NCBI GenBank assembly: GCA_025353725.1
Contig: JANXOF010000030.1
Span: 1-64,000, forward strand
DNA length: 64,000 bases
Source: Polyangiaceae bacterium
Lineage (GTDB): Bacteria; Myxococcota_A; Polyangia; Polyangiales; Polyangiaceae
Direction of reading: 5' to 3'
The notes under the pieces: model-generated
Databases searched by the model: none
The model's input: only the letters and a program-made list of their open reading frames with translations
What the model was told of the DNA's origin: nothing
Translations under genes and position numbers: made by a program
Part shown: positions 3,600 through 62,741 of the stretch, piece by piece
Numbering within the stretch: position 1 is the first letter of the stretch
Layout: every line of letters begins with the position of its first letter

Positions 3600-4256
3600 A
3601 TGCTCACGATAAAGCTCGTTAGGCACGGGGAGTCGGAGGCCAACACGGGGACAGTTTCACCACAAGAGGTTGGTGACCACGAAATCTCCCTTTCCGCGCG
3701 CGGATACGAGCAGGCGCGCGCGGCGGGGGGCGTCCTTGGGTCTGCATTTCTGACGGATTCGCTCGTGTACTCGTCTCCCTACCGCCGCACGCGGCAAACG
3801 TTGAACGCTCTCCTCGACGGCGCGAGCACGGGTTCCGGGGCGGATTTGCGATCCTTGGTCAAAACGTACGAAGACCCGCGGTTGCGGGAGGTCGAGCATG
3901 GCTACGACCCGCTTCCTCTCCAGGAGGAGCTGCGCAAGCGACACGGCTGGTTTTACTATCGCTTTCGCGGCGGTGAGAGTCCCGCCGATTGCTTTGATCG
4001 CACCTCGAGCTTTCTCGAGTCGATGATGCGGGGGGCGGAACGAAAGCAGGTCGACCGTATTTTGATCGTCACGCACGGACTGCTGATTCGCTGTTTCGTG
4101 ATGCGCTTTCTCCATTTGTCTGTGGAGGAATTCGATTCTCTCGCGAACCCTCCGAACTGCGCGATTGTCACGCTCGCGGACAAGGCGACGCTCGGCGAAA
4201 CGCAATTTGTGTCCGGCAAGTGGGGGGTCGCCGGGCTCTCGCTCCGCGCGCCTTAG
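3600..4256 (+). CDS. Histidine phosphatase family protein
   Basis: Member of the phosphoglycerate-mutase-like histidine phosphatase superfamily, 218 residues. The N-terminal catalytic motif VRHGESEAN supplies the phospho-accepting His, SSPYRRTRQT the second Arg segment, and ILIVTHGLLIR the distal His. A substrate cannot be assigned. It ends one base before the convergent stop of the kinase on the other strand. Confidence 0.88.
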   Translation: MLTIKLVRHGESEANTGTVSPQEVGDHEISLSARGYEQARAAGGVLGSAFLTDSLVYSSPYRRTRQTLNALLDGASTGSGADLRSLVKTYEDPRLREVEHGYDPLPLQEELRKRHGWFYYRFRGGESPADCFDRTSSFLESMMRGAERKQVDRILIVTHGLLIRCFVMRFLHLSVEEFDSLANPPNCAIVTLADKATLGETQFVSGKWGVAGLSLRAP

Positions 4257-4257
4257 G

Positions 4258-5412
4258 TCAACGCTCGTTGCCTGAAGGCGACGGCTCGGTCGGGTCTTGT
4301 GGCTTGTGAAGTGCACGCAACACAGTCGCCCCGACCAAGACGGTAATTGCCGCCACGACGAGCGTGAGGAGAAGGCCGCGCGCGACGGGCCGCGTCGACC
4401 GCGTCGTCGACACGCTGGCGAGCGATGGGCGCGAGCGCATCGGCGAGGGAGCCGTGCCGACGTTCATCGTGGCGTGGATCTGCTCGATGCTGGTGCGACC
4501 GCGGCGCGAGGCAAAGGGCGCAAGGGCTTCGGCGACGTGCGCCACGGTCGCGTACCGCGCGGCCTTGTCCTGGGCGAGGCAACGCTCGACCACGTCAGCG
4601 AATCCCTCCGGCACGTCTGACGCGAGGCTCCGCACCGGAGTCAGTCCGTCGATGGCCATGGAGGCCAGGATTGAGACGGGAGAGTTTCCCTTGAATGCGG
4701 TTTGACCCGTTACCAGGCGATAGAGCAGCGCACCTAGTGAAAAGATGTCTGACCGCTCGTCGACGTCGCGCGCACTTGTCATCTGCTCTGGCGACATGTA
4801 GCCGGGAGAGCCAAGCGCAACGCCTTCACTCGTAAGGTCGCCTCCGCGTGGTCCACTGTTCGACCCCGTGCTGCGGTCGTCGAGGATCTTCGAAATGCCG
4901 AAATCGAGTACTTTTATGCTTGTCGTTCCGCCTGCCCCGCGGGCCAGGAAAAGGTTTGCGGGTTTGAGGTCACGATGAACCATGCCCATGGCGTGGGCTT
5001 CCGCTACCGCTTCGCTTGCCTCGAGGATGTAGTCGACCGCGACCTCAACAGGCAGCCTGGAACTCTTCGCGACGACGAAGGAGAGGTCCTCACCGTCGAG
5101 GTGCTCCATGACGATGTAGGGAGTGTCGTCCTCCAAGGAGCCTACGTCGATGACGCGGGCCACGTGCGCGTTCTTGAGGCGTACGAGAAGCCGTGCCTCG
5201 CGCTGAAATCGAGCCAGCGCTTCGGGGCTTGCCTCGCGCAGGAACTTGATGGCGACACGTTGGTCGAGCTCAATGTGGGTCGCCGCGACCACGACGCCCA
5301 TCCCGCCGGTGCCGATAACGCCGTCGATCCGGTACTTCTCCGCGACGATCTGACCCACCGACAGCTCGAACACCGGCTCATTGTCACACACCGCGCGCCG
5401 ACGCGGTATCAT
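4258..5412 (-). CDS. Ser/Thr protein kinase, membrane anchored
   Basis: Hanks-type kinase of 384 residues. Visible are the Gly-rich loop GTGGMG (34-39), VAIKF with the ATP-binding Lys56, HRDLKPAN (146-153), DFG (170-172) and an APE-like SPEQM segment. After the kinase domain there is a Ser/Arg-rich linker and one hydrophobic segment (LLLTLVVAAITVLVGATVL) near residues 345-363, then a short tail, so the kinase faces the cytoplasm with almost no sensor outside. The gene is divergent from the next kinase with 14 bases between the starts, so their promoters must overlap coding sequence. A GTG start some 40 bases further in is possible. Confidence 0.92.
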   Translation of the reverse strand: MIPRRRAVCDNEPVFELSVGQIVAEKYRIDGVIGTGGMGVVVAATHIELDQRVAIKFLREASPEALARFQREARLLVRLKNAHVARVIDVGSLEDDTPYIVMEHLDGEDLSFVVAKSSRLPVEVAVDYILEASEAVAEAHAMGMVHRDLKPANLFLARGAGGTTSIKVLDFGISKILDDRSTGSNSGPRGGDLTSEGVALGSPGYMSPEQMTSARDVDERSDIFSLGALLYRLVTGQTAFKGNSPVSILASMAIDGLTPVRSLASDVPEGFADVVERCLAQDKAARYATVAHVAEALAPFASRRGRTSIEQIHATMNVGTAPSPMRSRPSLASVSTTRSTRPVARGLLLTLVVAAITVLVGATVLRALHKPQDPTEPSPSGNER

Positions 5413-5426
5413 CCTTAGGACCGCCG

Positions 5427-6356
5427 ATGCGTGTCCTTGCTGAACGCTACGAACTTCATGAGCGCATCGGTCGCGGGGCCATGGGCGAAGTGTGGTCCGC
5501 CACCGATGTGACGACGGGCGCGGACGTCGCCGTCAAGGTCGCGCAACAGTGGGCGCTTGAAGACCCGGGGCTCGTCGAACGCTTTGAGCGGGAGAGCACG
5601 CTGCTTCGACGTCTTGCGAGTCCCTTCGTTTGCGCGCTGATCGCTTCTGGAAGGGACGCTGACGGCCAGCCTTTCATCGTCGTCGAACGACTTCAGGGTG
5701 AGACGCTCGAGCAGCTGCTCGCGAGGGAAGGATATTTGCCAATGGCGACGGTGGGGTGCATCGCCGACGAGCTCCTCCAGGCACTTGTTCTCGCGCATTC
5801 GGCAGGGATTATTCATCGCGACTTGAGTCCGTCGAATGTCTTCCTGCATCGCACACCGGCGGGTGAGGCCATCACGAAAGTCCTCGATTTCGGGATTGCA
5901 AAAGTCGTGGGCCCAGAGGCCGAGTCGGGGGCGCCGCGGACGGGGCATCGCGTAACGATGGGCTCGCTTCCGTACGTTGCCCCGGAGCAGCTCGGCGACA
6001 GTGCACGGGCCGGGCCGCGCGCCGATCTTTATGCGTTGGGTACGCTTATTTTTAGGGCGTTGACGGGGCAGTTGCCTTACGGAACCGCAAAGGGCATGGC
6101 CCTCATTGCACTCAAGCGCGAAAGCGAAGCGCTGAGCATCGATGAAGCGACCGGTGAGACATGGCCTGCGCAGCTTCGTTCGTTCCTTGCTAAAACCATC
6201 GCTCGTTCGCCCTCGAAACGCTACGCCTCGGCGGAATTGGCGCTCGCGGCGTGGCGGGAGGCCGTGCACGGAAAAGGACCACGCGTGGTGATGCCCGAAG
6301 GGCTGCGTGACTCGACTCCGACGTTGACACTCCACGGCCCTGGCGGAAAAAAGTAG
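5427..6356 (+). CDS. Soluble Ser/Thr protein kinase with HRDLSPSN loop
   Basis: Kinase domain of 309 residues without membrane segment. GRGAMG (15-20), Lys37 and DFG (154-156) are present. The catalytic loop reads HRDLSPSN (130-137): the usual Lys after HRDL is Ser, while the catalytic Asp and the Mg-binding Asn remain, so activity may be reduced or altered rather than lost. The gene sits 11 bases before an FHA-sigma54 activator. FHA domains bind phosphothreonine, so the two are likely a kinase and its phospho-reading transcription factor. Confidence 0.9.
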   Translation: MRVLAERYELHERIGRGAMGEVWSATDVTTGADVAVKVAQQWALEDPGLVERFERESTLLRRLASPFVCALIASGRDADGQPFIVVERLQGETLEQLLAREGYLPMATVGCIADELLQALVLAHSAGIIHRDLSPSNVFLHRTPAGEAITKVLDFGIAKVVGPEAESGAPRTGHRVTMGSLPYVAPEQLGDSARAGPRADLYALGTLIFRALTGQLPYGTAKGMALIALKRESEALSIDEATGETWPAQLRSFLAKTIARSPSKRYASAELALAAWREAVHGKGPRVVMPEGLRDSTPTLTLHGPGGKK

Positions 6357-6367
6357 GAGCAATTGAA

Positions 6368-7687
6368 ATGGCGACCACGGTATTTTCGACGCAACTCCTC
6401 GAATTCAAAGGTGGCTGCATTCGGTGCGAAGGAGCCACGAAGGAGCAGTCGCTTATCGTGGGTCCAGAACCCGTGGTGATCGGACGCGATAGCGCCTGCC
6501 ATCTCGTCGTCGAAGGGACTGGTATCTCGTCGATGCACGCAGAGTTCGTGGCGACGTCGCGGGGGGTGCGCTTGCGCGATCTCGGGAGTAAAAACGGGAC
6601 TTGGGTAGGAGATCTTCGCGTGACGGAGGCTACCCTAACGGCGTCGACGAGCTTCTGGATCGGCCGGACCGAGATGCTCTTCGAGGTACGGAAGGCTGAA
6701 AAAATAGAGCTCCCCGACATTGAGCAATTCGGACCTCTGTACGGCACGAGTGCGCCCATGCGTGACCTCTTTCGACGCCTCCAAAAGGGCGCAAGCACAG
6801 ACCTTACCGTGCTTGTTCAGGGCGAAACGGGTACCGGTAAAGAGCTCGTTGCCCAGGCGGTTCACAGCGCGAGTGAGCGCCGCGAGGGCCCCTTTGTCAT
6901 CGTCGATTGTGGGGCTATAGCGCCTACGCTCGCCGAAGCGACGTTGTTCGGTCACGAGGCGGGCGCGTTTACGGGGGCTACGTCGACGCGGATGTCGCCG
7001 TTCCTTGAGGCGAACGGCGGAACTATTTTTCTCGACGAGCTCGGCGAGTTGCCACTCGAGGTACAACCAAAATTGCTGCGTGCGCTTGCTGAGCGACGCG
7101 TAAAAGCCGTCGGCAGCAATACGTATAAGCCCTTCGATGCACGCGTTATCGCGGCGACGCGTCGCGATCTCGAGTCCGCCGTGAACGCAGGAACCTTCCG
7201 AAGCGATCTCTACTTTCGCCTCGCGCAGGTCCGCGCCTCGGTGCCGCCGCTAAGACAGCGTGTCGAGGATGTGCCCGGACTCATTAAACACGTCCTCGAG
7301 CAGCACGGGGCGAAGGGCGCTTGGCGCCGTGTCAACCGCTCGACGCTCGAGCGCCTTCTTCGTTATGATTGGCCCGGTAATGTGCGCGAACTACGGAACG
7401 CCGTAGCCGTCGCGCTCGCACTCAGTGAGGAGGGCGAGCCGCTGGACATCGCGGGCGCCCTCGGCTTGAAGGCGCTAAAAGGAAAGGCCATCGAAGCCAC
7501 GGCCGTTCGCGCGTATCATGACGCGAAGCGTGACGCGCTCACTCACTTCGAGCGGGCGTACTTCAAGCAACTTCACGATGCGACGAACGGGAACGTCGCC
7601 GAAATCTCGCGGCGAACGGGTCTCCAGCGCACGCACGTTCGCAAGTACCTGCGCATGCATGGCTTCCGCGCTCCCCGACAGGCTTAG
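6368..7687 (+). CDS. FHA domain sigma54-dependent transcriptional activator
   Basis: Enhancer-binding protein of 439 residues. An N-terminal FHA domain (about 25-105; IGRDSACHLV, SSMHAEF, GSKNGTWVG) replaces the usual receiver domain. The AAA+ domain has Walker A GETGTGKE (152-159), the sigma54-contacting GAFTGA loop (199-204) and Walker B GGTIFLDE (217-224). The C-terminal Fis-type helix-turn-helix (NVAEISRRTGLQRTHVRKYL) binds DNA. It should activate sigma54 promoters in response to phosphothreonine made by a Ser/Thr kinase, most simply the one directly upstream. Such FHA-EBPs are typical of myxobacteria. Confidence 0.95.
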   Translation: MATTVFSTQLLEFKGGCIRCEGATKEQSLIVGPEPVVIGRDSACHLVVEGTGISSMHAEFVATSRGVRLRDLGSKNGTWVGDLRVTEATLTASTSFWIGRTEMLFEVRKAEKIELPDIEQFGPLYGTSAPMRDLFRRLQKGASTDLTVLVQGETGTGKELVAQAVHSASERREGPFVIVDCGAIAPTLAEATLFGHEAGAFTGATSTRMSPFLEANGGTIFLDELGELPLEVQPKLLRALAERRVKAVGSNTYKPFDARVIAATRRDLESAVNAGTFRSDLYFRLAQVRASVPPLRQRVEDVPGLIKHVLEQHGAKGAWRRVNRSTLERLLRYDWPGNVRELRNAVAVALALSEEGEPLDIAGALGLKALKGKAIEATAVRAYHDAKRDALTHFERAYFKQLHDATNGNVAEISRRTGLQRTHVRKYLRMHGFRAPRQA

Positions 7688-8142
7688 TCGCTCGTAGTCG
7701 TCGCGTCTTGGACGTTTGCGGCCTCGAGTTCGGCGATGTCGAATTTAGTCATTTTCATCATTGCCTTGGCGACATTGTTGGCATTCGGTCCCGTCATGAG
7801 TTCGGGTAGGGCGGCAGGAATAATCTGCCACGAAACTCCGAACCTGTCCGTTAGCCAGCCGCATCTCTGCGCTTTGCCGCCCTCCAGTAGAAGCGTCCAA
7901 TAGCGGTCAATTTCCGGCTGATTTTCGCAAGGAATAACAAGAGAGATCGCGGGAGTAATCGCGTAGTGAGGTCCGCCATTGAGCGCTACGAAGCTGCGGC
8001 CGGCGAGCGTGAATGCGACCGTCAAGACTTTGCCTCCCATTCGAGCGGTCCGGTCGATCCGGCTTTCTGGAAACACTTCGATGTAAAAGTTCGCAGCTTC
8101 TTCGCTTTGACCATCAAACCAGAGGCAGGTTCCAATATTCAT
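7684..8142 (-). CDS. VOC family protein (PhnB-like)
   Basis: 152-residue glyoxalase/VOC-fold protein of the PhnB/3-demethylubiquinone-methyltransferase-like group: CLWFDGQSEEAANFYIEVFP at the N-terminus, FVALNGGP in the middle and WLTDRFGVSWQIIP near the C-terminus. These proteins are usually dimeric, and the substrate cannot be predicted. Its stop overlaps by four bases the end of the convergent sigma54 activator gene. Confidence 0.88.
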   Translation of the reverse strand: MNIGTCLWFDGQSEEAANFYIEVFPESRIDRTARMGGKVLTVAFTLAGRSFVALNGGPHYAITPAISLVIPCENQPEIDRYWTLLLEGGKAQRCGWLTDRFGVSWQIIPAALPELMTGPNANNVAKAMMKMTKFDIAELEAANVQDATTTSD

Positions 8143-8258
8143 TCGCGTTGTCCTTGTTCATTTCGGCTAGGCAGGTTCGTGCACAGAGATGGTTTTGGCG
8201 AGCTCGTCGCTGGGCCTGAAATTCGTGAGTTTTTCTCAAGAAGCCGAAGATCTTGTCG

Positions 8259-10238
8259 CTATTTGCGCGGTGGGCGAGAGCGTTCGTGAAACCACGTACG
8301 ATAGGTCTCCATGCGCGCGCGCTGGTCTTTGGGTGCGTGGGCGCGGCACGTTTCCAGCTCTTCGCTGCCGGCGTGGGCGCCCCAGCGCGATTCGATGCAA
8401 TCGTTAGGATTATACGCGACTTCGAGCGCGGACGTTCGTCGCAACACGTCTTCGAGGGAAAGCGTAAAGAGCGAGCCGTCAGTACGTGTATAAGTCACTC
8501 TTCGCTGTCGGAGTTCGCGCTCGAGAGAGCGGTCCATCGCCTCTCGGACCTGCTGGTTGGTTTGCCCTGCGGGCATGGCGAAGCGCTCGGGGCGGCGCAC
8601 GACACGGGAAGGAAACGTGCGAACGATGTCGACCGCAATCAGAATACGGAGGTCCCGTGAAGGGGTCGAAAAGTCTTCCCACGGTCCGCTTGTCTCGAAA
8701 ATATCGGGACCTTCGGGCATGACGGCGAGCTCGCGCGTCGCGGCAAGCCATCGTCGCCCGTTGTCGAGGGATTTGATGCGTGTACGGACTTGTTCTTCGA
8801 GTGCGTCGAGGGTTTCGAGCATGGCTCGTTCAGGGTCGAGCGGATGTGGCGACAGGACGTCATCTATCGTGTCGTAGAAGCCTTCGATGTCGAGCTTCGT
8901 AGCCTCAAAGGAGACGTCGCCGTAATCCGGATTCTTTCGGATTGCGTCGTCGTCGAGGCGCGTCAACTTGCCTGAACGCCGCGCGACTGGGCGAAAACGC
9001 TTGAATCCCGGCCCGCCCAGCTCCTGCCGCGTGGCGTAGAGAAAGTTTCCGCGCCAATAGCGCTTTCGTGCGACGGTCCCGTCGGGCTGCCCGTCCACCG
9101 CAAAAAGCTGACCGCCGCGGGTAGCGCTTTGAGGCACACGCTTGGCAATCATCAAGACATGACCATACGGATCGGCGTAAGTCACTCCGGGTCGGAGGGC
9201 AGTCTCGGTCAAAGATACGGGATAATAATCGCTATTTTGCTCCTCGAACGGCTGACGCGCGGATCCCGAGTGCGCCTTGTCGGCGACAGTGCCGCGCAGG
9301 AACGTCCCGAAGGCCTTCACGGCGCTAGCTTTGTCGTCGAACGGCACGGGTACATCAAAGTTCGAGACGAGTACTCCTGGTTTGCAGGAGGGTGGTGCTC
9401 CCCCGCCGCCTCGGTTGCATTCGGAGAGGCCAAACGGCAGACGCAGCTTGAATGCGAAGTATGCGCGGAGGAAGTAAGGTAAGTCGGCGCAATCCGGCCG
9501 CACAACGGGCGCGTTGGCAGAGTCTTCACCCGCGGCAAGGTGATCGAACAGGAGGTTCCGTCGCTTATCACGCAAGACCTCGTGAAGCGCCGGCCAGCTC
9601 GGCATCTCTGCGTCAGGGGCATCGAAGAGATGTTCAATCCATGCGGAATAGACGTTTTCGAGCGCGCGGTTCCAGGTGCGATAGACAGGCCAAAGCGCGG
9701 CGCCCTCCTTTGGCGGAACGGGGGGCGGAGGTTTCCACGCACCCACCAGGATCCGTTTTGTGACCTCCCCCGCGCCTGCCTCGCACCCTTGCTGCGTAAA
9801 ACGAGCGTCGTAAGGGCCTGCCCGCGGCGACTCCAACTCGGCGACAAAAAAGTAAGGGGGCCCACCGTGACGGACCGCGCTTGACCCGACCAAGGCAGCG
9901 TCGGGCCCAGCCGCCTCACGTTTACCGGCGGGCAGAATCCGCAGTGTTCCCTCGAGTGGGCTGTCGCTCACGGCGAGGACGCGCAATGGAGCGCCCACCC
10001 AGGCTACGCCCGGTGTGACGAAAAGAAAGATGCCCTCTGCGGGGGCGCATTTGGCGATCTCTCCTGGCAGCGCCTCGGCAGCGTTGTCCGCCACGCGGGC
10101 CAGGGGCTGTTCGGTGGCTATTGCGGTCGCGACGAGCGCCTGTCGTGTCAGTCGGTCTGTACCTTGAGCTCGATGGCACGCCGCTAGCGCGAGTGCGACG
10201 ATGGACCAGGGCAGCCTCACAGAGAACGAGTAACGCAA
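8259..10238 (-). CDS. Lipoprotein with possible papain-like Cys/His pair
   Basis: Not recognised as a named family. A signal sequence with lipobox ALAAC (Cys21) predicts a lipoprotein of 659 residues. Residues 60-170 look beta-rich. A central segment has DCADLPYFLRAYFAFKLRLPFG around Cys250, followed by YADPYGHVLMI with His360. A Cys on a helix start and a His on a following strand are how NlpC/P60 and transglutaminase-like enzymes place their catalytic pair, so a cell-wall or peptide hydrolase or a relative is possible. This is inference from motif shape only. The C-terminal third is charged and helical. Confidence 0.6.
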   Translation of the reverse strand: MRYSFSVRLPWSIVALALAACHRAQGTDRLTRQALVATAIATEQPLARVADNAAEALPGEIAKCAPAEGIFLFVTPGVAWVGAPLRVLAVSDSPLEGTLRILPAGKREAAGPDAALVGSSAVRHGGPPYFFVAELESPRAGPYDARFTQQGCEAGAGEVTKRILVGAWKPPPPVPPKEGAALWPVYRTWNRALENVYSAWIEHLFDAPDAEMPSWPALHEVLRDKRRNLLFDHLAAGEDSANAPVVRPDCADLPYFLRAYFAFKLRLPFGLSECNRGGGGAPPSCKPGVLVSNFDVPVPFDDKASAVKAFGTFLRGTVADKAHSGSARQPFEEQNSDYYPVSLTETALRPGVTYADPYGHVLMIAKRVPQSATRGGQLFAVDGQPDGTVARKRYWRGNFLYATRQELGGPGFKRFRPVARRSGKLTRLDDDAIRKNPDYGDVSFEATKLDIEGFYDTIDDVLSPHPLDPERAMLETLDALEEQVRTRIKSLDNGRRWLAATRELAVMPEGPDIFETSGPWEDFSTPSRDLRILIAVDIVRTFPSRVVRRPERFAMPAGQTNQQVREAMDRSLERELRQRRVTYTRTDGSLFTLSLEDVLRRTSALEVAYNPNDCIESRWGAHAGSEELETCRAHAPKDQRARMETYRTWFHERSRPPRK

Positions 10239-53294: not shown

Positions 53295-54971
53295 ATGAAG
53301 TCTTCGAACGACGAGCGAACTCGAGGACAATGCTGCCCGAAGGCGCATGTCGTGACAGTGACGACGGTCGGCGGTGATGTGCGTGGACGACGGTCGAATG
53401 GCGTTACTGCCTTCTACGGAATCCCGTACGCGGAAGCTCCTGTGGGCGCGCTGCGCTTTGCGCCGCCAGTGCGCCGTCGCCCGTGGGGAGGTGTTTTCAA
53501 TGCGACGGACCCTGCGGCTGGAGCGCCGCAGCGACCCGCCGCGCTCGCCCAGCTCATCGGTATGTCATGCCCGGTGCAAGACGAGGACTGCCTGCACGTA
53601 ACGGTGTGGACACCCTCTTGCGCCCCCGAACGGAGGCGAGCGGTGCTGTACTGGATCCACGGTGGCGGGTTTGAAGCTGGCTCGCCGTCGAATCCGTTGG
53701 CCGACGGGTCGCGACTCAGCGCGTATGGCGACGTTGTCGTGGTGAGCGTCGGATATCGTTTGGGGGCAATTGGTCTGCTGTGCCTGGACGGTGTTCCGAG
53801 CAACCGCAGTTTACTCGATCAGGCAGCGGGTCTCGAATGGGTGCGCGACAACATCTTCGCCTTTGGCGGCAATCCGAACAACGTAACGATCTTCGGTTCA
53901 TCCGCGGGAGGAACGTGCGTCGCTGCGCTCTTGTCGACGTACGGTAGTTCTGGCCTTTTTCAACGGGCGATTGTCCAAAGCGGCTCTGCGGAGGGCGTGG
54001 TCAGTGAGGATGTCGCCAACGCCGCGAGGAACGAGGTACTCGTTCAACTTGGGTCGTTCGAGCGCGAACCGACAAGGATTCGGTCGCTACTCGAGTCGAT
54101 TTCAAGCGAACGCCTCGTGAACGCCCAACGCGCCGCAAGCGACCAGCTCCAGCGCGAAGGCGTCGTGGTCCCTTTCGGGCTCGCGCTCGACGAGCGCACG
54201 CTGCCGCGTCTTCCACTGGCCGCAATTCACGCGGGAAGCGCAAAGGGCGTGGAACTCCTCGTTGGGACCAACAAAGACGAACTTCGTCTTTGGTCGCTCG
54301 GCCAATCGCCGCCAGCCATCAAGAATGCGCGCGACCTTGCGGACCAGGTCACGAAATTGTTGGGCGGATCTTCGACCGGCGCGGATGTTCGCGCCCTCGC
54401 GTCCGAGCTCACCGCGCGATACGTCGCCATGCGCCCGTTAGTGCCTCTCCTAGACACCTTCTTTGCGCTAGCAACCGACCTCTATTTTCGTATGCCGGCA
54501 CTTCGGCTTGCAACCGCTCAAGTCCGGCATGCGCGCGTATTTTCTTACCTGTTCTCGTGGCGCGTTCCCACGTTTGGTGGAAGCCTCGGTGCACCCCATG
54601 CCGTCGAGATCCCGTTCCTTTTTGGGACCCACGAGCGTCTTCGCATGGCCTTATTTTTAGGCGTAGGCGCTGACCGCTCAGCTCTTTCCACACGGATGCA
54701 GAACATCTGGACGTCTTTCGCAAGCCTCGGAGAGCCTTCTGCAGATGGCTTTATCTGGCCCTTGTTCGATTCTATCGACCGAACGACCGTAACCATCGAC
54801 CACGCGCTGACTACCCTTCAGCCCGCGTGGGGGCCCGAGGTCGACGCGTGGTCGCCGGTGTGGCGTGCGCTCTTTGCCGTCGAGGGGATCGATGTTGAGC
54901 GCGTGTCTACCCTACGGTCGGTTCCGCCACCGCAAATGCCTCTCGAGCAATTCGCATCGTCCGCAGTCTAA
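53295..54971 (+). CDS. Type B carboxylesterase
   Basis: 558-residue alpha/beta hydrolase of the carboxylesterase/cholinesterase family. FYGIPYAEAPVGALRFAPP (41-58), EDCL (97-100), oxyanion loop HGGG (122-125), nucleophile elbow GSSAGG with Ser203, and HAVEIPFLFG in the C-terminal region with the catalytic His region. No signal peptide is seen. It may hydrolyse esters of lipids or small molecules. It is convergent with the phosphotransferase gene, the stops overlapping by four bases. Confidence 0.93.
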   Translation: MKSSNDERTRGQCCPKAHVVTVTTVGGDVRGRRSNGVTAFYGIPYAEAPVGALRFAPPVRRRPWGGVFNATDPAAGAPQRPAALAQLIGMSCPVQDEDCLHVTVWTPSCAPERRRAVLYWIHGGGFEAGSPSNPLADGSRLSAYGDVVVVSVGYRLGAIGLLCLDGVPSNRSLLDQAAGLEWVRDNIFAFGGNPNNVTIFGSSAGGTCVAALLSTYGSSGLFQRAIVQSGSAEGVVSEDVANAARNEVLVQLGSFEREPTRIRSLLESISSERLVNAQRAASDQLQREGVVVPFGLALDERTLPRLPLAAIHAGSAKGVELLVGTNKDELRLWSLGQSPPAIKNARDLADQVTKLLGGSSTGADVRALASELTARYVAMRPLVPLLDTFFALATDLYFRMPALRLATAQVRHARVFSYLFSWRVPTFGGSLGAPHAVEIPFLFGTHERLRMALFLGVGADRSALSTRMQNIWTSFASLGEPSADGFIWPLFDSIDRTTVTIDHALTTLQPAWGPEVDAWSPVWRALFAVEGIDVERVSTLRSVPPPQMPLEQFASSAV

Positions 54972-56119
54972 GCTTTAGCCTTTAAATGGGGTGGCAGCAT
55001 GAGGATTGGAATCCGAAGCGTGCGGGCGATACCGAACGTCGCACCGAGGTAGGTCGCTCCCATTATCCAAAACGCTAAAACGAGATTCGCCCACCCAAGG
55101 ACAGCTGCAAGGCGCGTGCTCGAGACGAATTGAAGTGTGGTCGCAGAAGCCACGAGAGGCAAAAGAGCGGGATCGAAGATTTTCGGGCGCGTCAAAATAA
55201 GCTGTCCCAGAATTTGGCGCGCGATGAGGTGTAGGCCAACCAACGAGACGGCGAAAACGAACAGCGGTGCTACGCTTGCGTCAACGGAGCGAACTGCGAC
55301 AGCACCGGCTGAGCAGAGAATGACGGGGGCGAAGAGTTCCACGAAGACGGCACCCCTGGGCCCCAACCGCGCAACGCGCACGATGCTTCCGACAGCGCCT
55401 ACGCCACCCACTGCACCGACACCGACGACAACCACCCAGACACGAAGTGGGGCCGTGGAGAGAGGGAACGAAGAGGCGACGGGGAGCGCACTCGCGAGCG
55501 ACTGACCCCACGGCTCAACGCCGACAAAGAACGTGATTGCGTGAACCATCATCATCAAGAGCTGGGCTTCATAAATGCTCGTGCCGTTACCCATGTAGAG
55601 CGTGCCCGTATGACGAGTCTCCCAATGGGCTACGTAGTTGTTCACGATGACGCTCCCGAGGAGAAAGAGCATGGTTTTTCCCGCACCGAGGCCGATGGCA
55701 CCGCCAGCTGCCGCCATCGCAAGCTGAACCGACACAACGTCCGCTGCGTGGTCGAACCAATTGCCAAGCGCCGAGCTCGATTTCGTTCTGCGCGCTTGCT
55801 TTCCGTCGACCGCATCGAGCGTTTGGAACGCAAAGATCGCAGCGACCGAATAAATGTAAATAGCCTTCGGGACAGGTTGTGAAAACGAGGGATTCGCAGT
55901 GAGCATCAACGCGAATGAGAGTGCGACCAGCACGAGCCCCGCCAATGTGATTGCGTTCGGAGCGACATAGGCCGGAACAACTTCGGCTGTCGCGTGCCAA
56001 AAAGGCTCGAGGAAGCGGGACACTAGCGAGCGATCGACAGTGCGCCCAACGTGAGGCTGCTTAAGGCGAGTCTCTTCATCACTAGTGAAAAATGAATTGT
56101 GTGACGCCGTCATACCCAC
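54968..56119 (-). CDS. Eukaryotic-type CDP-alcohol (choline/ethanolamine) phosphotransferase
   Basis: 383 residues with about ten membrane helices. The catalytic motif DX2DGX2ARX8GX3DX3D is complete at residues 102-127 (DAVDGKQARRTKSSSALGNWFDHAAD). Around it the sequence follows the eukaryotic aminoalcohol phosphotransferases CEPT1/EPT1/CPT1: YVAPNAITLAGL, QTLDAVDGKQARRT, and AHWETRHTGTLYMGNGTSIYEAQ. These join diacylglycerol and CDP-choline or CDP-ethanolamine (Kennedy pathway) in eukaryotes; bacteria normally use PS decarboxylase or PC synthase routes. No cytidylyltransferase is seen nearby, so the alcohol donor is inferred. It is one of the most unusual genes here. Confidence 0.88.
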   Translation of the reverse strand: MGMTASHNSFFTSDEETRLKQPHVGRTVDRSLVSRFLEPFWHATAEVVPAYVAPNAITLAGLVLVALSFALMLTANPSFSQPVPKAIYIYSVAAIFAFQTLDAVDGKQARRTKSSSALGNWFDHAADVVSVQLAMAAAGGAIGLGAGKTMLFLLGSVIVNNYVAHWETRHTGTLYMGNGTSIYEAQLLMMMVHAITFFVGVEPWGQSLASALPVASSFPLSTAPLRVWVVVVGVGAVGGVGAVGSIVRVARLGPRGAVFVELFAPVILCSAGAVAVRSVDASVAPLFVFAVSLVGLHLIARQILGQLILTRPKIFDPALLPLVASATTLQFVSSTRLAAVLGWANLVLAFWIMGATYLGATFGIARTLRIPILMLPPHLKAKA

Positions 56120-56287
56120 CGCTCCTCAGGTTACTGCGTACCAGTCAGCGTACTTAGCGTGCCGCGAGCGATCGCCTTAGGACACAACGGCAACGTATGG
56201 CCCCAGTCAAACTCCAGAAAACGCCGCACCGAGCAGAAGCCGCTCGCCCGGGAAGCAGTGGAAAATGGACGGATACCCAAGAACGAT

Positions 56288-57968: not shown

Positions 57969-59360
57969 ATGCTCAAGGTTCGTCGCACGGCTCAGCGTTA
58001 CGCTCACTCGGCGGCTGGGTCGGCTCTTGGTGGTGCAGCGCTTGTGCTCGGCATGGACAGTGCCGCGGCCGGACACTTGTTTCCCGCACTGGAGATAGCG
58101 GCCCGAGCGCCCGCGGGAGGCGCGTCGTGGTTTCTCACATTGTCGATGCTTGGGGCGGTCGCGTCTGCTCCGCTAGTGGCGGGTGCCGCGGCTCGCGTCG
58201 GTCGGCTTCGTCTCCTCGCGGGCGCCTTGTTCGTGTTTGGGCTCGCGAGCGTCGTCGTTGGCCTTTCTTCGAGCTTCTTGGTTACGCTCCTTGCGCGATT
58301 CGCACTGGGCGGAGCGGGAGCGGCAGTGATGCCACTCGCGGCAGCTCAGCTCAGCGCTGACGGCAAAGCGACGACGCGTGGTCAGCGTCAAGCACGCCTT
58401 TCGTTGTGGTACTCCGCAGGCTTTCTTATTGGGATGGCGACGGTATCGCTTTTTCTGCTCGTAACCTTTCGTCTCGCCTTTTTCTTTACCGGAGCGCTCG
58501 CGTGGGTGGCGGCAGCGCTCGTCGGTGCTCGCCCGCACTACGTCAGCGAGCCTGAGAGTGTTGCGGTCTCTCCTTATCGCGTCGCGGCTTGGGTTGTCGT
58601 CCTCTCAATCACGGCGTTCGCCCTGAACCAGAGCGCGATGACGAGTTCCTATCGCGCGACGGTAGGACCCGTCTACCGCGTCGTCGTCGTTGTCGCGCAG
58701 GCTATCGCCGCACCGGCACTTTTGCTTTTTGTGTGGAGTGATCGGTCTTCTAGAATATCAGTATTTCCTCGTGCGCTTCTCCACTCGAAAGTCGGATTCG
58801 CTACGGCAGTTCTCGCGCTGGCGACGGGAATCGGTCAAGCGTGCGTCGTCGTTCTGCCCGCCTGCGCAATGGCTAAACTCGGCGTCTCTGCCGCGGCGAC
58901 CGGGCCCTTGCTCGGTCCTGTCGTTGTGGGGGGCCTTGGGGCGAACCTGCTAGCGTCATCGAAACTAGACTTGTTGGGTCCAAAACCATTGCTCTCGGGT
59001 GGACTACTGCTTAGCGCGATGGGCAACCTAACCGTCGGACTTCTTGGCTCGAGGTGGGTCGGTTTTGAGGCGGGCGCATTCCTAATAGGGGTTGGCGTCT
59101 CCCTTATGTCATCGGGGGCGCTCCGCCATCTAGCAACGATTTACGGCCGTCCTAGCGACAGCAACTCCGACCTGGCAGGCGTGTCGATGCTCACAAATGT
59201 TGGAATTCTGCTCGGTGGAACACTGTGGGGTGCTGTCGCTAGAAATGCTAATACACCCGATTCGGTGAATGCTGGGCTTTTTGCAATAACAAGTGCGTTG
59301 GTCCCTCTATCTTTGGCACTCTTCTTTATTCCACAAATCCGCGTTCGGGTCGTAAGTTAG
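57969..59360 (+). CDS. MFS transporter
   Basis: 463 residues, about 14 membrane helices. MFS features are weak but visible: LTLSMLGAVASAPLVAGAAARVGRLRLLAGALFVFGLASVVVGLS in helices 2-3 and LLARFALGGAGAAVMPLAAAQLSADGKATTRGQRQARLSLWYSAGFLIG in helices 4-5. Exporter-type architecture; substrate unknown. The PLD gene begins four bases after the stop, so the two are almost certainly co-transcribed and may serve one lipid-linked function. Confidence 0.85.
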   Translation: MLKVRRTAQRYAHSAAGSALGGAALVLGMDSAAAGHLFPALEIAARAPAGGASWFLTLSMLGAVASAPLVAGAAARVGRLRLLAGALFVFGLASVVVGLSSSFLVTLLARFALGGAGAAVMPLAAAQLSADGKATTRGQRQARLSLWYSAGFLIGMATVSLFLLVTFRLAFFFTGALAWVAAALVGARPHYVSEPESVAVSPYRVAAWVVVLSITAFALNQSAMTSSYRATVGPVYRVVVVVAQAIAAPALLLFVWSDRSSRISVFPRALLHSKVGFATAVLALATGIGQACVVVLPACAMAKLGVSAAATGPLLGPVVVGGLGANLLASSKLDLLGPKPLLSGGLLLSAMGNLTVGLLGSRWVGFEAGAFLIGVGVSLMSSGALRHLATIYGRPSDSNSDLAGVSMLTNVGILLGGTLWGAVARNANTPDSVNAGLFAITSALVPLSLALFFIPQIRVRVVS

Positions 59361-59364
59361 ATCG

Positions 59365-60693
59365 ATGCATCACTGCGAGCCGACGTATCTGCTGCGCTAT
59401 CCTCCAGGCTGGGTGACGCGAATGAGCGTACAGGCTCTACGTCTACTTAGAGACCTTGGCGTCCCGCAACTTTGCGGCGCAAGCGACGGCAGACTCAGGG
59501 GGGTTGCGTTAGGTGCACGCGCGGCCGCACGGAGGTCGTTCGCCCGACCGATTCGACTACCCCCGTCCGACTACGCGGCTGGCGGAGTTGCCACGTTCGC
59601 AGAGCTGGAGGCCACGGATAGCGTAGTGCTCCTGAAGGAAAACCGACAAGCGTTCGATGCAAGATGCGCCATGGTCGACGGGGCCCTGAAGACGGTCGAC
59701 TGCGCGCTTTACTACATCGAAGACGATGCGACGGGCCGAGCTTTCGCTACGGCGCTCGTGCGCGCTGCTGAGCGTGGCGTTACCGTCCGCCTTGTGGTCG
59801 ACAGTCTGGCAAGCGTCGAGAAGCAATACACTACGTTCTCCTTTTCATCGTTGCCGATGCGCGGTTCTCTCGTGCTCCTCGAAGAGCTGCAGAAGAGGGG
59901 ATGCGACGTACGTTTGGCTGGAGGCGACAGCTGGTGCATGCACCGAAAGTTTTTACTCGCTGACGACGACGCACTGCTCCTCGGTGGACGAAACGTTGCC
60001 GATCATTACTCGACGCCTGGATGGCGCGACCTGGAGCTTCGTTTCGACGGTCCGTTCGCGCGTTCGTTTAAGTGCTTTGCGGACGCGACATTTGCCGTTC
60101 CAACAAACTGCGACACGAACGCAAAAGGCGTGCTTTCGGGTCTGGCCGGCCACAAGGGAACGCTCTTTGTGCAGCATGTTTCACACTTGATAGAAGCGGC
60201 ACAACACTCCATCGTGATCGAGCACGCTTACGTTCTATCGTTACCCTGGTTGGTCGAGCGTTTAGCGCGTGCTGTCCGACGCGGTGTTTCTGTTTTGCTC
60301 TCAACGAACAGCGAGTCAACGAACGACCTTCCGTTTATGAACTGGCGCATGTCGACCGCTCTTTCGGAGCTTGCCGACGCCGGTGTCCGCGTCTTCCGTC
60401 GCAGAGCAGGCCTTGGGACGCTCCACACAAAGGCGATCGTCGGCGATGCTCGGTTCGTCGTTTTGGGAAGCACGAATCTCGATTACTATTCACCCACGTT
60501 TTGCGCCGAAGTTGACCTCGTAATAGAAAGTGAGGATCTTGGACGTGCGCTAGCGTCGCGCATCGAACAGGGCTGCGAGGAGGACCAGGCCGAGCGCTTC
60601 TTCGGTACACGATTCAATCAAGCCGGAAGCTCGACCGTGCCTTATGTATCGCTCTCACGGATATGTGACCTTATTCTTCATGACTTGCAATGA
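59365..60693 (+). CDS. Phospholipase D / cardiolipin-synthase-like protein
   Basis: 442 residues with two HKD motifs, His193-x-Lys195-x4-Asp200 (HRKFLLAD) with following GGRN, and His354-x-Lys356-x4-Asp361 (HTKAIVGD) with GSTNLDYYSP. This is the architecture of PLD-superfamily phosphatidyltransferases such as bacterial cardiolipin synthases, which move a phosphatidyl group from one phospholipid to another. No clear membrane helix at the N-terminus. Hydrolase and transferase activities cannot be separated by sequence alone. Second gene of the MFS-PLD operon. Confidence 0.92.
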   Translation: MHHCEPTYLLRYPPGWVTRMSVQALRLLRDLGVPQLCGASDGRLRGVALGARAAARRSFARPIRLPPSDYAAGGVATFAELEATDSVVLLKENRQAFDARCAMVDGALKTVDCALYYIEDDATGRAFATALVRAAERGVTVRLVVDSLASVEKQYTTFSFSSLPMRGSLVLLEELQKRGCDVRLAGGDSWCMHRKFLLADDDALLLGGRNVADHYSTPGWRDLELRFDGPFARSFKCFADATFAVPTNCDTNAKGVLSGLAGHKGTLFVQHVSHLIEAAQHSIVIEHAYVLSLPWLVERLARAVRRGVSVLLSTNSESTNDLPFMNWRMSTALSELADAGVRVFRRRAGLGTLHTKAIVGDARFVVLGSTNLDYYSPTFCAEVDLVIESEDLGRALASRIEQGCEEDQAERFFGTRFNQAGSSTVPYVSLSRICDLILHDLQ

Positions 60694-60965: not shown

Positions 60966-62741
60966 ATGAATTGCAGCGCGGAGGGGAGCGGACTCAGTGA
61001 CGGCGCAACGAGCACCACGAAAACGAGCTCGGTTCGTCGGTTGCTCCATGCTGCCTCTTTGTCGACGATCGTTTTCTTGGCGTGCAAAGCCCCTGCTGAC
61101 GAGACGTCGTCGCCGAGCACGTACGAGATAAGTAGCGACGGAAGTAAGCATTCCGTAGTCTTTGCGACAGCGCAAGGGCAGACGTTTTCACGCATCAAGA
61201 CGTCTGTTATAAACGGAGTGCACCATACAACGTTTGATTACGAATCGGACGGTCAACGTGTTGTTGATTTTACCGTTGAACGGACAGCCTACTTTCAGAC
61301 GTCGAGTGGACTCGTCTTTAACTTTTCGGTCACATTGCGCGCAAATGATGGCGCCCCTGAGACGACGGAATTGCCAACCGGCGGAAGTGCCGAAACCCAG
61401 TCGTTTCGAGTCTTCGCGACGAGGCGTGGCTACGTCGTCGCGGTTCGGAAGAGCGACGGGGTACGACTCGGCTCAGCAGCACTCCAAGCGAATGCCGTGG
61501 GACTTGCGCATTCAGAAATGCCTGTCGAATCTCAGAGCAGTAGCAAGTCGAAGTCGTCGCTTCCGTTCGCGATAAGCTCAGACGCGCTGTCATCGTCGAG
61601 CGGCGTCGCCGGCGCGGCCGCGCGCGCGCTGATCCAAGTCCCCGGCGTCGGTTGCGCCGAGGTTCGCGTGGACGTCAGGGAAGCGAGTTCGACGGATTCT
61701 GCGGAGAGCTCCGGAAACGTTCGTGTCGGCGTGAACGACGACTCTCCCATCGAACTCACGGCGGAAAAAGCGTCGGCTCGCATGGCTTATCCCAATAATT
61801 CATCTTCCTCGGTCCGCGGCTCTGCAGGTGACGGGGCCCTCCTCAACGCGAGCGCGCAGGGGCTCCTTCGCGAAGGTGCGACCTTCCCTTCGAGCACGGC
61901 ATGCACGGCGAGCCTGCTGACCTCCGACACCGTGAGCGAGAACTCGTTGCTTGTCCCCACGTGTGGACTGAACCAGATGGTCTACGGAGATGTTTGCGCC
62001 ACTCCGTCGCCCCTCCTTCTTGCGAGTGCACGCCCGAAAAGTCAGGGAGCCTGTGCGAATCAGAAAGGGTGGATACGTTCCCTTTGTGAACACAATTCCG
62101 TGCTCGCGAGCATCATTCCCGACGCCATCGTGATCAGTGCGGGCATTCATCCTGGTGCCAGTGCCGACGGAGGCTACATGACGTTCGTCAATAAGCTTTC
62201 TTTGGGTGCAGGCATCCCGCTGACACTAAATTCGGCTCGATTTCCGACCATTAAGGAAAAGGTTGCGCTGTCGCTCAACGACATCATGGCAAAGGCTACA
62301 AAAGTTCAGAGTAAGTTTCAGCGCACGGTAGGGAAGGTGACTGGAGGACTCGATCTCGGTATCGCGTTTACGGTCGATGTCAACGGGCGGTATTACGTTA
62401 CTCTCAACGAGGTGAGTCTCTCGAACGGGAGTGCGTACATTCTCGCGAGTGCACTTTGGACTCCAGGTAAAAATCACCACGCTGAGCTAAAAGATTTTCT
62501 AAGCGGCGACGGGCAGTCGGCTTGTTTTAACTTTGGCTCCGGGCTCCTCGGGAGCATCTGCGGAATACATGGGGGCCCGTGGTGGGAGGCCTTCAATCCC
62601 ACTAACTTTCCCGACCAGTACGGCTTCACTATCGGTATCGGTGTGGGGACGCCTGGCGCTTCTGTGGGCTCCGGTTACACATGGAGCGCCGCGGACTTCA
62701 ATACGACATTTGGCACCCATCTTCCTGAAACGTTTTGGTGA
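60966..62741 (+). CDS. Large hypothetical lipoprotein
   Basis: 591 residues; basic N-terminal stretch, hydrophobic signal (LLHAASLSTIVFLACK) with lipobox at Cys40, then Ser/Gly-rich beta-type sequence. Regions: about 50-200 an immunoglobulin-like or beta-sandwich part (VVFATAQGQTFSRIKTSVINGVHHTTFDYES); 330-380 a Cys-rich piece; the C-terminal 200 residues have FVNKLSLGAGIPLTLNSARF and GFTIGIGVGTPGASVGSGYTWSAADF, resembling a glycine-rich barrel-like end. No known family or active site. The 272-base gap before it has no gene. Confidence 0.6.
   Translation: MNCSAEGSGLSDGATSTTKTSSVRRLLHAASLSTIVFLACKAPADETSSPSTYEISSDGSKHSVVFATAQGQTFSRIKTSVINGVHHTTFDYESDGQRVVDFTVERTAYFQTSSGLVFNFSVTLRANDGAPETTELPTGGSAETQSFRVFATRRGYVVAVRKSDGVRLGSAALQANAVGLAHSEMPVESQSSSKSKSSLPFAISSDALSSSSGVAGAAARALIQVPGVGCAEVRVDVREASSTDSAESSGNVRVGVNDDSPIELTAEKASARMAYPNNSSSSVRGSAGDGALLNASAQGLLREGATFPSSTACTASLLTSDTVSENSLLVPTCGLNQMVYGDVCATPSPLLLASARPKSQGACANQKGWIRSLCEHNSVLASIIPDAIVISAGIHPGASADGGYMTFVNKLSLGAGIPLTLNSARFPTIKEKVALSLNDIMAKATKVQSKFQRTVGKVTGGLDLGIAFTVDVNGRYYVTLNEVSLSNGSAYILASALWTPGKNHHAELKDFLSGDGQSACFNFGSGLLGSICGIHGGPWWEAFNPTNFPDQYGFTIGIGVGTPGASVGSGYTWSAADFNTTFGTHLPETFW

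Follow-up and report, generated by a model that had tools for sequence, protein, structure and literature searches.

The window, the whole stretch of 64,000 nucleotides analysed here, has on its minus strand a gene for a protein of the eukaryotic choline/ethanolamine phosphotransferase type (CEPT-like). In our judgement it is rather probable that this gene codes for a class II CDP-alcohol:diacylglycerol phosphotransferase of the eukaryotic, ten-helix type, which is part of a small accessory island and which an ancestor of two congeneric species most likely acquired from a eukaryote. One is the species of the window, whose genome we call G000. The other belongs to the same Polyangiaceae genus; its genome, G011, is that of JALHPN010000034.1, 'Polyangiaceae bacterium isolate bin.255', a MAG. 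The enzyme is most likely a variant member of its class.

The open reading frame at 54968-56119 (minus strand) has 383 aa when it is read from a GTG; the residue numbers of the catalytic signature are counted from this codon at 56119, unless stated. The ATG at 56113 is a likelier start. It lies 8 nt downstream of a putative ribosome-binding site, GAGGAG (56122-56127, minus strand), and gives a protein of 381 aa (54968-56113, minus strand), which we assign to class II from PDB homology, the tree and an AlphaFold model. The features named in a preliminary description of this gene are all present: the reading frame, the full DX2DGX2ARX8GX3DX3D motif and the two stretches QTLDAVDGKQARRT and AHWETRHTGTLYMGN. 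In the alignment the signature reads D102..D105-G106..A109-R110..G119-N120..D123-H124..D127 and occupies positions 55739-55816 (minus strand). Pfam CDP-OH_P_transf scores 45 bits, where the cut-off is 22. In the PDB, phmmer finds human CEPT1 (E 6.6e-30), Xenopus CHPT1 (3.4e-28), human CHPT1 (2.4e-25) and yeast CPT1 (1.5e-24); they are the only matches at E up to 1. In the C-terminal half the sequence match to these relatives is weaker, but the structural match is clear. None of the NCBIfam prokaryotic models reaches its cut-off, and the matches are weak: the best is archaetidylinositol phosphate synthase with 40 of 180 bits, PgsA has 27 of 109 and PssA 22 of 107. The same description placed the protein closer to CEPT1/EPT1/CPT1 than to PgsA or PssA, and the PDB E-values, the NCBIfam scores far under cut-off and the tree all agree with it. 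The Pfam and PDB matches and the ortholog in a second genome show that the similarity is not due to chance.

The AlphaFold model was calculated with an input of 33 sequences from the window and the fetched loci. It has a mean pLDDT of 90.4 and a pTM of 0.89, and shows the ten-TM fold, including the C-terminal half. Compared by VIA with CEPT1, CHPT1 and CPT1 it gives Z values of 37-40 over 350-361 residues, with 8gyw and 9uet both at Z 39.8 (353-355 residues); Foldseek matched it at E 6.8e-16. Archaeal and bacterial class I enzymes align to the first six helices only, with Z 13-18 (archaeal AF2299: Z 17.7 over 187 residues). Two short strands of the model, 26-29 and 173-176, correspond to the two-stranded sheet which is present in xlCHPT1 and absent from RsPIPS and SaPgsA (PMC10182977).

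We have mapped the residues of the protein onto xlCHPT1, with the functional residues taken from PMC10182977. The metal-binding Asp 111/114/132/136, Arg119, the cytidine Asn64, the catalytic His133 and the choline-cage Trp50 of xlCHPT1 are all kept: their equivalents in the window protein are the four Asp of the signature, Arg110, Asn55, His124 and Trp41. His124, which belongs to the extended signature G2ExxD3HxxD4, is also found in the G011 ortholog. The Glu of this extended signature, proposed as catalytic in PMC10182977 (Glu129 of xlCHPT1), is replaced by Asn120 in the window protein, and the ortholog also has Asn. At this position all the other aligned relatives (40/40) have Glu: 29/29 myxobacterial, 6/6 spirochaetal and 5/5 eukaryotic. 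The diphosphate-binding Tyr34 of xlCHPT1 becomes Gly25 in the window protein and Phe in the ortholog. The pocket residues Glu43/Trp50/Phe186 correspond to Ser34/Trp41/Met176; the Glu and the Phe are missing from yeast CPT1 too.

The distribution of the gene is very narrow. A search at E<=1e-15 in all 108 genomes of the family found only the window gene and its G011 ortholog, which has 54-55% identity and the same motifs. Among 379 sampled Myxococcota the next best score after the window protein is 61 bits, and human CEPT1 has 108 bits; these come from separate searches and can only be compared roughly. The C-terminal query segments of human CEPT1 and yeast CPT1 agreed with the aligned PDB letters. 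Two conserved peptide patterns, run against genome_contigs (about 85,000 species), picked out the G011 ortholog and one distant spirochaete. Such short patterns can miss divergent members, for example EPT1-like or Treponema-like variants, so that absence outside Myxococcota means absence of close relatives only. The search for a mobile-element or viral carrier was negative: tblastn gave nothing in plasmid records, the 67 pattern matches in viral contigs included no relative, and PHROGs gave no match. CEPT-like proteins in general are not uncommon among bacteria: many came from Myxococcota in the phylum search, and relatives in Treponema from the profile search.

A first tree which included class I outgroups had long outgroup branches and did not settle the deep order; these outgroups were therefore dropped for the main tree. 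The main tree (IQ-TREE) has 42 sequences, only five of them eukaryotic: three come from PDB entries, and the other two are Arabidopsis AAPT1 and human EPT1. In it the window pair and the five eukaryotic sequences are grouped at 100/100, separate from the myxococcotal and Treponema CEPT-like proteins. The grouping is still found at 100/98 with the three PDB-derived eukaryotic sequences only, so it stands without AAPT1 and EPT1. Placement with the myxobacterial paralog family of L005 is rejected by the AU test (p 0.0012). This is the phylogeny which had been proposed as a check, and it places the window protein with eukaryotic CEPT/CPT/EPT, outside the ordinary bacterial clades. The tree grouping and the presence in only two genomes favour a gain from a eukaryote, which is likely and our best reading. 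The preliminary description had offered either acquisition from a eukaryote or shared ancestry; the former is now the likely one, but the direction is not proven, as the eukaryotes as one clade are not rejected (AU p 0.45, AAPT1 and EPT1 included), which is compatible with a place of the pair beside the eukaryotes as well as within them. The group has a long stem branch of about 1.5 changes per site in the 42-sequence tree, so that it does not fix the donor lineage or the direction of transfer.

The genes around the CEPT-like gene form an island which is found again in G011. Just upstream there is a membrane fatty acid desaturase (PF00487, 56288-57523, minus strand), whose G011 ortholog is also adjacent. 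A type-B carboxylesterase (PF00135, 53295-54971, plus strand) is convergent with the CEPT-like gene, overlaps it by 4 bp and has a counterpart in G011. Beyond the esterase lies a cyclopropane-fatty-acyl-phospholipid synthase-like methyltransferase (CMAS; Pfam PF02353, 51525-53174, minus strand). The order of genes in G011 is a mirror image with the relative orientations unchanged; the identities between both genomes are 70% for CMAS, 54% for CEPT and 44% for the desaturase. The 56 further relatives that were searched gave no CMAS match at E<=1e-60. Orthologs of the desaturase occur in 2 of 58 relatives, the two carriers, with two weaker matches of 29-30% identity. CMAS aligns to solved cyclopropane synthases and shares with them the stretches YSC, EH, IH/LH and HYYWTL, whose Cys, Glu, His and Tyr are the catalytic residues. 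The desaturase has no match in the PDB. A headgroup enzyme together with two modifiers of acyl chains suggests a dedicated membrane lipid. Only in G011, an ORF for a HAD-type phosphatase lies between CEPT and esterase (L010, 2629-3831, minus strand); it is a possible source of diacylglycerol. Near the island in the window there is a further lipid-related gene, for a PLD-like protein similar to cardiolipin synthase (59365-60693; 83 of 290 bits). It adjoins an MFS transporter (57969-59360), and at 60966-62741 there is a 591-aa protein without Pfam match.

The Kennedy-type route which had been suggested for this bacterium is not borne out. A search for choline/ethanolamine kinases of family PF01633 found none in G000 or G011, and the controls matched. 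G000 has four PF01467 matches, which by length and sequence are like CoaD (in the window), NadD, RibF and HldE; there is no Pcyt-type cytidylyltransferase among them. Nine NTP_transf_3 proteins, assigned in part and with a PepM fusion among them, are also found in G000. These searches recovered neither a kinase nor a Pcyt-type enzyme, so they lend no support to a complete Kennedy route. Both carriers have a cluster with a PEP mutase-NTP transferase fusion, a phosphonopyruvate decarboxylase (Ppd), an AEP transaminase, a CDP-alcohol transferase and a second NTP transferase. It lies at 3818-9575 of locus L114 in the window's genome (G000:C68, about 73.8-79.6 kb) and at 5113-10839 of L115 in the other (G011:C83). 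These clusters are likely to be a phosphonolipid or phosphonoglycan pathway. By the logic of nucleotidyl activation (PMC6697681), their product should be CMP-aminoethylphosphonate.

Several other explanations have to be weighed against a transferase of eukaryotic origin with class II activity. The window enzyme could be a phosphonolipid synthase, which would take CMP-2-aminoethylphosphonate from the PepM-cytidylyltransferase/Ppd/AepT cluster and make diacylglyceryl-aminoethylphosphonate. This cluster, with its fusion, Ppd and transaminase in both carriers, is the only ethanolamine-like (CDP-ethanolamine-like) donor pathway that we have found in them. In G044, from another family of the same order, a region at 4532-10382 of L129 (G044:C518) contains PepM, a PntC-like gene, Ppd, a second NTP transferase, AepT and, closing the cluster, the CEPT-like gene L018, which ties CEPT-like genes to CMP-aminoethylphosphonate chemistry in the phylum. 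We find this explanation rather unlikely, however: the cluster has a CDP-alcohol transferase of its own (L114 7861-8736) and it lies on a different contig from the CEPT locus. Moreover 8 of the 12 genomes in the genus encode PepM, most of them lacking a CEPT of the window type; there is no specific coupling, and we have rejected co-occurrence with PepM as proof of a phosphonate donor. It is also conceivable, yet unlikely, that the protein is a weakened or inactive homolog, retained to bind CDP or lipid in partnership with the desaturase or cyclopropane synthase. Both copies have lost the otherwise invariant Glu as well as the diphosphate Tyr, and the mutation E129A leaves xlCHPT1 nearly inactive (PMC10182977), so that ordinary CEPT activity cannot be assumed. 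On the other hand the four metal Asp, the Arg, the His and the cytidine Asn are retained at 54% identity, which indicates selection on the active site, and Asn could still hold the His. The class I CDP-alcohol relatives also lack this Glu and are active enzymes.

As for the origin, the pair might descend from the bacterial lineage that gave CEPT to the eukaryotes. The AU test leaves room for it, since one clade of eukaryotes is not rejected, and CEPT-like proteins are diverse in Myxococcota. Such a vertical relic is nevertheless very unlikely: only 2 of 108 genomes of the family carry the gene, the sampled Myxococcota have nothing above 61 bits except the window protein, and the PDB-only tree joins the pair to vertebrate CEPT1/CHPT1, with yeast outside (98/93). 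Contamination with eukaryotic DNA comes to mind for draft assemblies, and at least the genome of the ortholog is a MAG, but it is extremely improbable. The ORF is intronless, has a bacterial ribosome-binding site and lies in a 101-kb contig of bacterial genes with an even GC content of 58-63%. The order desaturase/CEPT/carboxylesterase/cyclopropane synthase recurs with the ortholog in a separate MAG; its conservation in two assemblies speaks against contamination.

We return to the reading which we favour, a class II transferase gained from a eukaryote. What the analysis demonstrates is the sequence, the predicted fold, the phylogenetic group, the changed residues and the conservation of the island. 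The eukaryotic mechanism has been described (PMC10156783 and PMC10182977), and activity, acceptor and donor of the window enzyme may be drawn by analogy from its homologs. The four Asp would bind a pair of Mg ions together with the CDP moiety of the donor, a small polar CDP-alcohol arriving from the cytosol, and a diacylglycerol-like lipid would arrive from the membrane. His124, with Asn120 as partner in place of Glu, would activate the lipid hydroxyl for attack on the beta-phosphorus. CMP would be released and the product would be a zwitterionic phospholipid, whose acyl chains the linked desaturase and cyclopropane synthase may then alter. The candidate donors are CDP-ethanolamine or CDP-choline, through an unrecognised enzyme or uptake, and CMP-2-aminoethylphosphonate from the phosphonate cluster of G000. 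A bolder idea, which we find quite unlikely, is that a transferase captured from a eukaryote was retuned by the change from Glu to Asn for CMP-aminoethylphosphonate or another CDP-alcohol, and that with the desaturase and the cyclopropane synthase it builds a lipid unknown in other bacteria.

In bacteria, PE and PC are normally made by other routes. The window protein shares with the eukaryotic class II enzymes of the Kennedy pathway (CEPT1/CHPT1/CPT1/EPT1) the ten-helix fold, the signature, the His, the cytidine Asn and the choline-cage Trp. It differs from them by the change of the dyad Glu to Asn and of the diphosphate Tyr to Gly or Phe; its gene differs by the bacterial acyl-tailoring island, and the upstream Kennedy enzymes were not found. 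An enzyme which groups with eukaryotes and has one otherwise invariant catalytic residue changed would be a natural experiment on the proposed His-Glu mechanism of CEPT1, and its gene is relevant to the exchange of genes between eukaryotes and myxobacteria. The choline phosphotransferase of Treponema denticola is served by LicA/LicC-type enzymes. As far as it is summarised in PMC7368946, it is a 1,2-diacylglycerol choline phosphotransferase of a CDP-choline pathway (Vences-Guzman 2017). This enzyme (L085, which we take to be from T. denticola) has about 335 aa and the same motif class, but it forms a separate clade in the trees and keeps the Glu. That myxobacteria have CEPT-like genes is not an entirely new finding, because EPT1 candidates are noted in PMC6906331 for a planctomycete and for 'a few myxobacteria'; the available passages of that paper describe no island, dyad change or phosphonate link for them. 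In the literature searched we have found no description of a subfamily which groups with eukaryotes and has the Asn substitution and an acyl-tailoring island.

The broad myxobacterial CEPT-like family (L005 in G000, L018, L071) has a similar length and about 20-23% identity with the window protein, but unlike it keeps the His-Glu dyad. G000 itself has a second CEPT-like gene (L133 9306-10391, G000:C23), which is of the ordinary bacterial type and retains the Glu; its protein matches CEPT1 at 3.7e-17, and no nucleotidyltransferase was detected beside it. At about 8624-10399 of L136 (G062:C7) an NTP transferase (LicC/PntC-like) is directly followed after 12 bp by a CEPT-like gene, a pair that would represent the last two Kennedy-type steps as two adjacent bacterial genes. 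Thus some myxobacterial CEPT-like genes adjoin nucleotidyltransferases or phosphonate genes, whereas the window gene does not; those of other myxobacteria offer a testable route to bacterial phosphonolipids.
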